This document shows positions 16,028 to 16,175 of a stretch of DNA of 64,000 nt, piece by piece (positions within the stretch are counted from its first letter, which is position 1; every line of letters starts with the position of its first letter). The notes under the pieces are model-generated. The model saw only the letters and a list, made by a program, of their open reading frames with translations, made no database searches and was not told the origin of the DNA. Position numbers and translations under genes: made by a program. The DNA is from Lysobacter avium (GTDB taxonomy: Bacteria; Pseudomonadota; Gammaproteobacteria; Xanthomonadales; Xanthomonadaceae). Location: positions 124,001-188,000 of the forward strand of contig NZ_CP063657.1 in assembly GCF_015209745.1 (NCBI RefSeq). The letters are read 5' to 3'.

Positions 16028-16175
16028 GAGAGCCCGGCATGCGCGCCCGATAACACCTCGGTGTCAGCCCACCGTAATTCAGCAGGGGCCGCATGCCGGA
16101 TCTCGCGCCCTGCGCCCGAACAGTTGCTCGAGGTGTCCCTCGAACTGATAAGCGTGGGCCTCGGACGCGATGCTC
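16028..16175 (+). ncRNA. Predicted bridge (seek) RNA of the IS110 element
   Basis: Two guide loops can be drawn. The target loop is closed by a perfect 10-bp stem, CCGGCATGCG (16034-16043) with CGCATGCCGG (16090-16099). Inside, TAACACCT (16051-16058) precedes a 5-bp hairpin (16059-16074) and TAATTCAG (16075-16082) follows it. These equal the attC left half plus CT and the reverse complement of CT plus the attC right half. The donor loop is closed by TCGCG/CGCGA and GCCC/GGGC stems. It holds ACAGTTGCT (16120-16128, identical to the right end at 17146-17154), a CGAGG/CCTCG hairpin, and ATAAG (16148-16152, reverse complement of the left end CTTAT). This is the known IS110 bridge-RNA architecture; transcript ends are guesses. 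Confidence 0.85.

Follow-up and report, generated by a model that had tools for sequence, protein, structure and literature searches.

Insertion sequences that enter the attC sites of integrons are known from the IS1111 group. According to PMC11187229, the IS1111-attC elements ISKpn4, ISPst6 and ISPa25 insert at one end of attC, and for ISKpn4 and ISPst6 the same source describes an RNA that co-purifies with the transposase. In this group, as portrayed there, the non-coding region usually lies after tnp, with exceptions, and the subterminal inverted repeats measure 7-17 bp. ISPa21 is another element found in attC, and PMC11616780 raises that it may immobilise cassettes; insertion sequences in the attC sites of Xanthomonas and plant-associated integrons are mentioned in PMC12444791 and PMC11089894, which cite Tetu and Holmes 2008 and Post and Hall 2009. 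In PMC11208160, which deals with the IS110-type IS621, attC apparently occurs only within a reference title.

The window considered here is the whole stretch of 64,000 nucleotides from Lysobacter avium that was analysed. It very probably holds an insertion sequence of the IS110 type that carries a bridge RNA on its 5' side; the target loop of this RNA is programmed for one attC end and the donor loop for the element's own ends. A bridge RNA with target guides that spell attC had been proposed in a sequence-only reading of this DNA, and the proposal is now supported by 24 of 26 insertions and by relatives in which other guides are found in matching other sequences.

Anatomy of the element and its predicted RNA

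The element occupies 15995..17154 (plus strand, as are all features below unless stated otherwise), that is, 1,160 bp including the CT core at both ends (15995..15996 and 17153..17154). These limits were set by near-identical copies in the same genome and are consistent with the flanks of homologues. The genome, of 2.85 Mb, has three copies in total: the window element, a copy at about 2,813-2,814 kb (L009) that is 100% identical to it over 1,160 bp, and one at 1,127-1,128 kb (L008) that is 98.4% identical. The left end, TATGTCTTG, lies within 15997..16022 and has the subterminal repeat TGTCTT; the right end, CAAGACAGTTG, at 17142..17152, has the repeat AAGACA and the donor letters ACAGTTG. 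In the window element the repeat extends to 7 bp (TGTCTTG/CAAGACA), and in the relative L092 it is 6 bp.

The sole gene of the element (16206..17129) encodes a DEDD recombinase, the transposase, of 307 amino acids. It matches Pfam PF01548 and PF02371, both above the cut-off, and contains the motif G--P----SG. The only sequences of solved structure that it matched are IS621 (E 7.6e-21) and ISCro4; in the alignment with IS621 the D, E, D, D and SG positions, which we take to be the catalytic residues, are conserved. GGAG at 16195 stands ahead of the ATG at 16206, and an alternative, longer ORF from 16170, which overlaps the RNA, is probably not the real recombinase start. The leader from the left end to this ATG is 209 bp long and only 23 bp lie between stop codon and right core, so that the layout is that of the IS110 type, with a long non-coding region 5' of tnp and a short one 3'.

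The bridge RNA region (model R1, 16023..16180) folds at -77.3 kcal/mol (z -4.37; none of 200 shuffles did as well), and the fold reproduces the first of two guide loops previously drawn for it, the target loop closed by the stem 16034-16043/16090-16099, in which TAACACCT and TAATTCAG flank a hairpin. The donor part holds ACAGTTG and GATAAG; here the second loop did not appear as fully open, the donor guide being partly paired. In a fold of 16015-16195 (-83, z -3.58, 1 of 200 shuffles as good), ACAGTTG pairs with CAACTGT immediately downstream. Of the 29 attC-clade rows, 9 have CAACTGT, which is the guide's exact complement, and 15 have CAACTCT, which differs from it by one letter. Single-sequence folding thus predicts a firm target loop and a donor loop that is open only in part.

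The consensus of 29 distinct leaders from close relatives has two loops, with a closing GAGAGC/GCTCTC. In the alignment A1 (29 distinct homologues), pairing letters fill 97.7% of the pair cells; when partners are slid, the share drops to 35-41%. At six pairs both sides have changed, where shuffles give 2.0 and 1 in 500 of them comes as high; the target-loop stem accounts for four of these pairs. The number of further pair types in A1 does not exceed that of shuffles (112 of 500). Judged from these alignments, the structure of the RNA is conserved with compensatory changes.

The order of the guides in the RNA is target then donor, and left before right. The left target guide, TAACACCT (16051-16058), has the letters of the attC left flank plus core; its claimed identity to the flank, CTAACACCT at 15988-15996, holds in 8 of 8 letters. 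The right target guide, TAATTCAG (16075-16082), is the complement of CTGAATTA and pairs with the right flank, CTGAGTTA from 17153, by seven pairs and one G-U, again as had been read. The left donor guide, ACAGTTG (16120-16126), repeats the element's right end, and the right donor guide, ATAAG (16148-16152), is the complement of core plus left end, CTTAT; the letters named for both are present in the window. What has to be shortened is the donor guide proposed as ACAGTTGCT. In the window CT is next to ACAGTTG, but among the 29 rows this dinucleotide is CT in 2 and AT, GT, GA, CA, GC, AC, CC or CG in the others, which leaves ACAGTTG alone as the conserved left donor guide. The covariation of the right donor guide (227 of 10,000 permutations) is too weak to use. 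That guides match flanks is not a matter of chance, since the match recurs in relatives, and guides and flanks differ together between clades. The gene, the place of the RNA on the 5' side and the guide order make the element IS110-type.

How would such an element move? The target loop would be set to one integron attC end (TAACRCCTGARTTA, core CT), the donor loop to the ends of the element itself; the recombinase and the RNA would bring the circle junction ACAGTTG-CT-TATG to the attC end, and strand exchange would occur at CT. Insertion would then take place between the L' and R' boxes, in one orientation, with the attC split. From the sequence we infer the circle intermediate, expression of the RNA, binding, catalysis and the loss of attC function. 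In the closed circle, TTGCTT would be placed 17 bp upstream of TACGCT (16015-16020, in the left-end region), presumably as a promoter; TTGCT of this hexamer is supplied from the right end and core, and what is observed is the left-end part only. A circle-junction promoter TTGCTT-17-TAnnnT is a tentative reading: most attC-clade elements have it, but in most sister-clade rows the hexamer is absent at that spacing.

Target sites in the genome and in relatives

The left part of the interrupted attC, GCCTAACACCT (15986..15996), is the R' core-site end in cassette (minus-strand) orientation, and the right part is at 17153..17255. Joining the flanks gives the empty site, GCCTAACACCTGAGTTAAGCCG...CGGCTTGAACGAATTGTTAGGG, an attC of 112 bp that folds as a hairpin. 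Box names (L', R') and the core-site rule are used here in what we assume to be their accepted sense. The window contains eight intact boxes by a short motif, with a full attC, by a longer pattern, at five; two cassette ORFs have a Pfam match, one at the cut-off and one below, and both are on the minus strand. The integron integrase of the genome (2808311-2809252, minus strand, 487 bits) adjoins an array whose boxes have the R' end away from it. The strand of the cassette ORFs and the box orientation at the integrase array place the insertion beside the core site, in the interval from L' to R'.

The whole genome has 31 intact boxes of the pattern, 30 of them in three arrays and one alone (backwards control 0). 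These arrays (G000:C1) extend over 139-145 kb, 1123-1131 kb and 2809-2819 kb, and each contains one copy of the element. The 14-mer TAACRCCTGARTTA occurs three times in the 2.85 Mb, always in the integrase-bearing array, and never in the backwards control. Within one mismatch of TAACRCCTNARTTA there are 34 places (backwards control 3), 33 in the three arrays and one at the lone box at 2624888; 31 of the 34 fit the longer box pattern, and of the other three, two are attC on reading and the third is at 2819114. A profile search of the genome gave no integrase match near the window array or the 1.12-Mb array, and an integrase above the family cut-off thus adjoins only one of the three. At the array end in the window (20966-21010) there is one attC end, CTAACACCTATTCGACACC, without a following L' half, which may be a scar.

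Relatives were sought in 395 genomes of the family; a recombinase relative is present in 111, and at least 48 named loci are from genome contigs. The clade read for leaders and flanks spans about 52-100% recombinase identity. Of its 29 distinct leaders, 28 have a left flank that can be read: this is YAACRCCT in 26 and CAACTCCT in L011, and that of L186 is decayed. By motif, the right flank was obtained in 17 of 29, as CTGARTTA in 13 and one letter off in L094 and L024, with no match in L011 and L015. A hand count, with duplicates set aside, gives 26 distinct insertions with both flanks, among which L019, with its short left flank, is likely but not certain to count as distinct; 24 have attC letters on both sides. 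The attC is whole in 19 of the 24, has a changed far end in L088, L091 and L024 (the last from Azomonas macrocytogenes), retains only the near box in L094, and runs off the contig in L017. End, orientation and insertion point relative to the attC letters are the same in all 24. Genomes with several copies have every copy in attC: 3/3 here, in three arrays, 4/4 in G286 and 4/4 in Xanthomonas massiliensis.

Homologues with the same guides in an unrelated target had been named as the observation that would speak against the guides. Such a case is clear once, in L011, which has attC guides yet sits in CCAACTCCT/CTGAAGCC, not in attC, as an off-target case; it is half present in L015, with attC letters on the left side only, and 24 of 26 insertions stand against it. 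L011 is also what favours the view that insertion is only loosely specific and that attC arrays harbour the clade simply as dispensable DNA. Arrays are indeed dispensable, but an insertion point that is identical relative to the attC letters in 24 cases makes this view extremely improbable.

The tree of 94 rows includes IS621, ISEc32 and one Klebsiella relative, and contains no named IS1111 member. All 16 rows labelled attC fall in one group of 21 rows (support 100/100); of the five unlabelled rows of this group, L008, L083 and L159 are in attC, and L099 and L101 are without a left end. Half of the tree (47 of 94 rows) is unlabelled, and its own group table needs six changes for "attC" with unlabelled rows counted as not attC.

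Two observations concern individual relatives. In the right flank of L088 and L091, the far attC end after GCTTGAATGAT is replaced by a sequence starting ATGGACTCCC or similar, and this shared replacement may be a second element or a common junction. Upstream of tnp, L022/L099 and L104 have an attC-clade recombinase without left end and donor loop, and with the target-loop stem kept; the frame is open in L099, the L022 copy follows a phosphotransferase-like ORF (read by eye), and all this is possibly a domesticated copy.

To reach beyond the attC clade, a covariance model of the attC-clade RNA was run on 100 of 235 loci and gave 94 matches, among them five weak ones on the opposite strand and one nested copy. 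Of 122 rows, 6 were dropped as antisense or nested, and some kept rows, those of the L150 group, have misplaced flanks. Relatives whose recombinases are about 37-49% identical have other guides, which suit the flanks of the element that carries them: L069 has the guide TGTGGCTCT with CGTGGCTCT, L125 has TGCAAGCCT with CCCAAGCCT and CCTTGGAG with CTCCAAGG, L107 has CGGGAGAG with CTCTCCCG, and L205 has GTAGGAG with CTCCTAC. In these other clades, left guides agree with their own flanks at 2.81 of 5 positions, versus 1.75 when permuted, and right guides score 3.70 versus 2.37. The left-guide test used 31 distinct pairs, drawn from 66 of 87 rows, and the right-guide test 23 pairs, from 47 of 87 rows; by identity, 0 of 10,000 permutations did as well in either test, and with wobble counted 1 of 10,000 reached the left-guide score. 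Pooling all rows gives 2.95 versus 1.80 for left guides (37 pairs) and 3.72 versus 1.88 for right guides (29 pairs), each with 0 of 10,000. Inside the attC clade alone, 7,092 (left) and 3,281 (right) of 10,000 permutations were as good; the guides are near-invariant there, so that the test is without power and the support comes from between clades. The prediction that guide changes co-vary with target sites thus holds between clades and gives no signal within this one. Because the guides of sister clades fit their own flanks, the RNA is reprogrammable, and attC is the setting that a single clade has adopted.

The same RNA scaffold stands beside palindromic REP-like repeats in L191-L211, L066, L069, L075 and L150, for example GCGACTGAAGTCGCT adjoining the insertion, as if the family favoured repeated hairpin DNA.

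Could the recombinase recognise the attC hairpin or its boxes by protein alone, with the resemblance of the guides as a by-product? A preference for structure is conceivable, given that attC folds as a hairpin and that several sister clades adjoin palindromic repeats. However, the end and orientation that remain constant in the 24 attC insertions are those of the guide-matching end, and sister clades target other sequences that match their own guides. Recognition by protein alone consequently retains a very slight probability, and guidance by the RNA is the reading kept below.

The opposite strand

The DNA of the bridge RNA also matches a catalogued RNA on its other strand. Rfam RF02234, sX15, matches the minus strand at 16020..16180 with 122 bits (cut-off 55), the sole match above cut-off at the locus; a second sX15 match, on the plus strand at 15966-16112, reaches 30 bits and is below it. 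Among the 395 family genomes, sX15 matches at E 0.001 in 88 and above the cut-off in 70. At 29 loci fetched by sX15 from 29 genomes (L058-L086), the start of the recombinase is adjacent and on the opposite strand in 27; of the remaining two, L073 ends at the contig end, and L085 was scored as same-strand, though an opposite-strand piece also adjoins. Elsewhere in the window, another Xanthomonadaceae sRNA of Rfam, sX13, matches 40388-40497 with 72.7 bits.

TACAGT (16187..16192, minus strand) precedes the 5' end of sX15 by 6 nt and may be an antisense -10. Of 67 distinct sequences, 47 have TAnnnT at this position, namely 25 of the 28 from the attC clade and 22 of the 39 from elsewhere; T, A and T at -12, -11 and -7 are present in 49, 55 and 51 of the 67, and the letters between are variable. 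This pattern is what a -10 element looks like, which makes it a candidate, and other causes are possible. The ribosome-binding block adjoins TAnnnT, and in attC-clade elements these letters also have the potential to base-pair with the donor guide. An antisense promoter was not settled on, because conserved letters before the ribosome-binding site may instead serve translation or donor-guide pairing.

One could then suppose that the conserved RNA is sX15, transcribed from the other strand as a trans-acting regulator for which the element is no more than a carrier, and that there is no bridge RNA. The 122-bit match and the TAnnnT count agree with this, as do the better fold of the minus strand (z -5.93 vs -3.58 for 16015-16195) and its slightly lower consensus energy (-114.2 vs -111.1). 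On the other hand, the guides agree with target and donor in the arrangement expected of a bridge RNA, and pair changes in 76 sequences aligned without structure (129 G-U and 61 A-C for the plus fold, 64 and 94 for the minus fold) favour the plus fold; the strand test on A1 alone is near equal, 18 vs 15, and too weak to use. Carriage of sX15 in place of a bridge RNA is accordingly very unlikely.

A bridge RNA on the plus strand leaves room for a partner, and both RNAs may exist. A tentative proposal, which we hold to be possible and rather doubtful, is that the two are fully complementary: the bridge RNA, and an antisense sX15 that would start from a promoter just before the transposase ribosome-binding site, pair with the bridge RNA and so brake transposition. 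If so, RNA-guided recombination in the attC clade and in sister clades would be regulated from within by an sRNA family already published for Xanthomonas. In our literature search sX15 appeared as a list entry, with no link to a bridge RNA, and nothing was found that joins bridge RNA, IS110 and Rfam. The present reading places a catalogued sRNA family opposite a bridge RNA, and existing strand-specific RNA data could test the proposal.

Relation to known systems

The element permits a direct test of whether an RNA selects the attC end, and naturally reprogrammed guides are available on one RNA scaffold. Insertion should also lock the neighbouring cassettes, an idea previously raised for ISPa21 in PMC11616780. 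A search of the literature, which covered article texts, found no IS110-type element with a 5' RNA aimed at attC, and authors' tables may list one. As a comparison sequence of the ISKpn4/ISPst6 kind, five plasmid tblastn hits were examined and set aside, their annotation being without a cassette array.

As for the catalogued RNA, sX15 covers the same 160 bp as the bridge RNA, but on the opposite strand, and is catalogued as a Xanthomonadaceae sRNA. The closest described element is IS621 (PMC11208160, structure 8wt6), likewise of the IS110 type, with a DEDD recombinase of similar length that is 30% identical. As PMC11208160 describes it, IS621 also has an RNA at the 5' end, a target loop followed by a donor loop, the left guide before the right and a CT core. 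Unlike in IS621 as described there, the guides here are programmed for attC; and the subterminal repeat is 6-7 bp, as against the 2-3 bp given for the IS110 group in Durrant et al. 2024 (PMC11208160).

With ISEc21, whose seekRNA is treated in PMC11187229 and which is also of the IS110 type, the element shares the 5' non-coding region and the bottom-strand match placed before the top-strand one; the target of ISEc21 differs. It resembles the IS1111-attC elements in its insertion in attC, a likeness at the level of published descriptions. It differs from the IS1111 group, as presented in PMC11187229, in that its RNA comes before tnp and that the top- and bottom-strand matches of IS1111 stand in reverse order. 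RNA-guided targeting of attC is therefore not new in kind, being known in the IS1111 group from the account of ISKpn4 and ISPst6 in that source; what the present locus contributes is a second kind of RNA-guided element on integron attC, with the RNA before the gene, and the letters that would be responsible.
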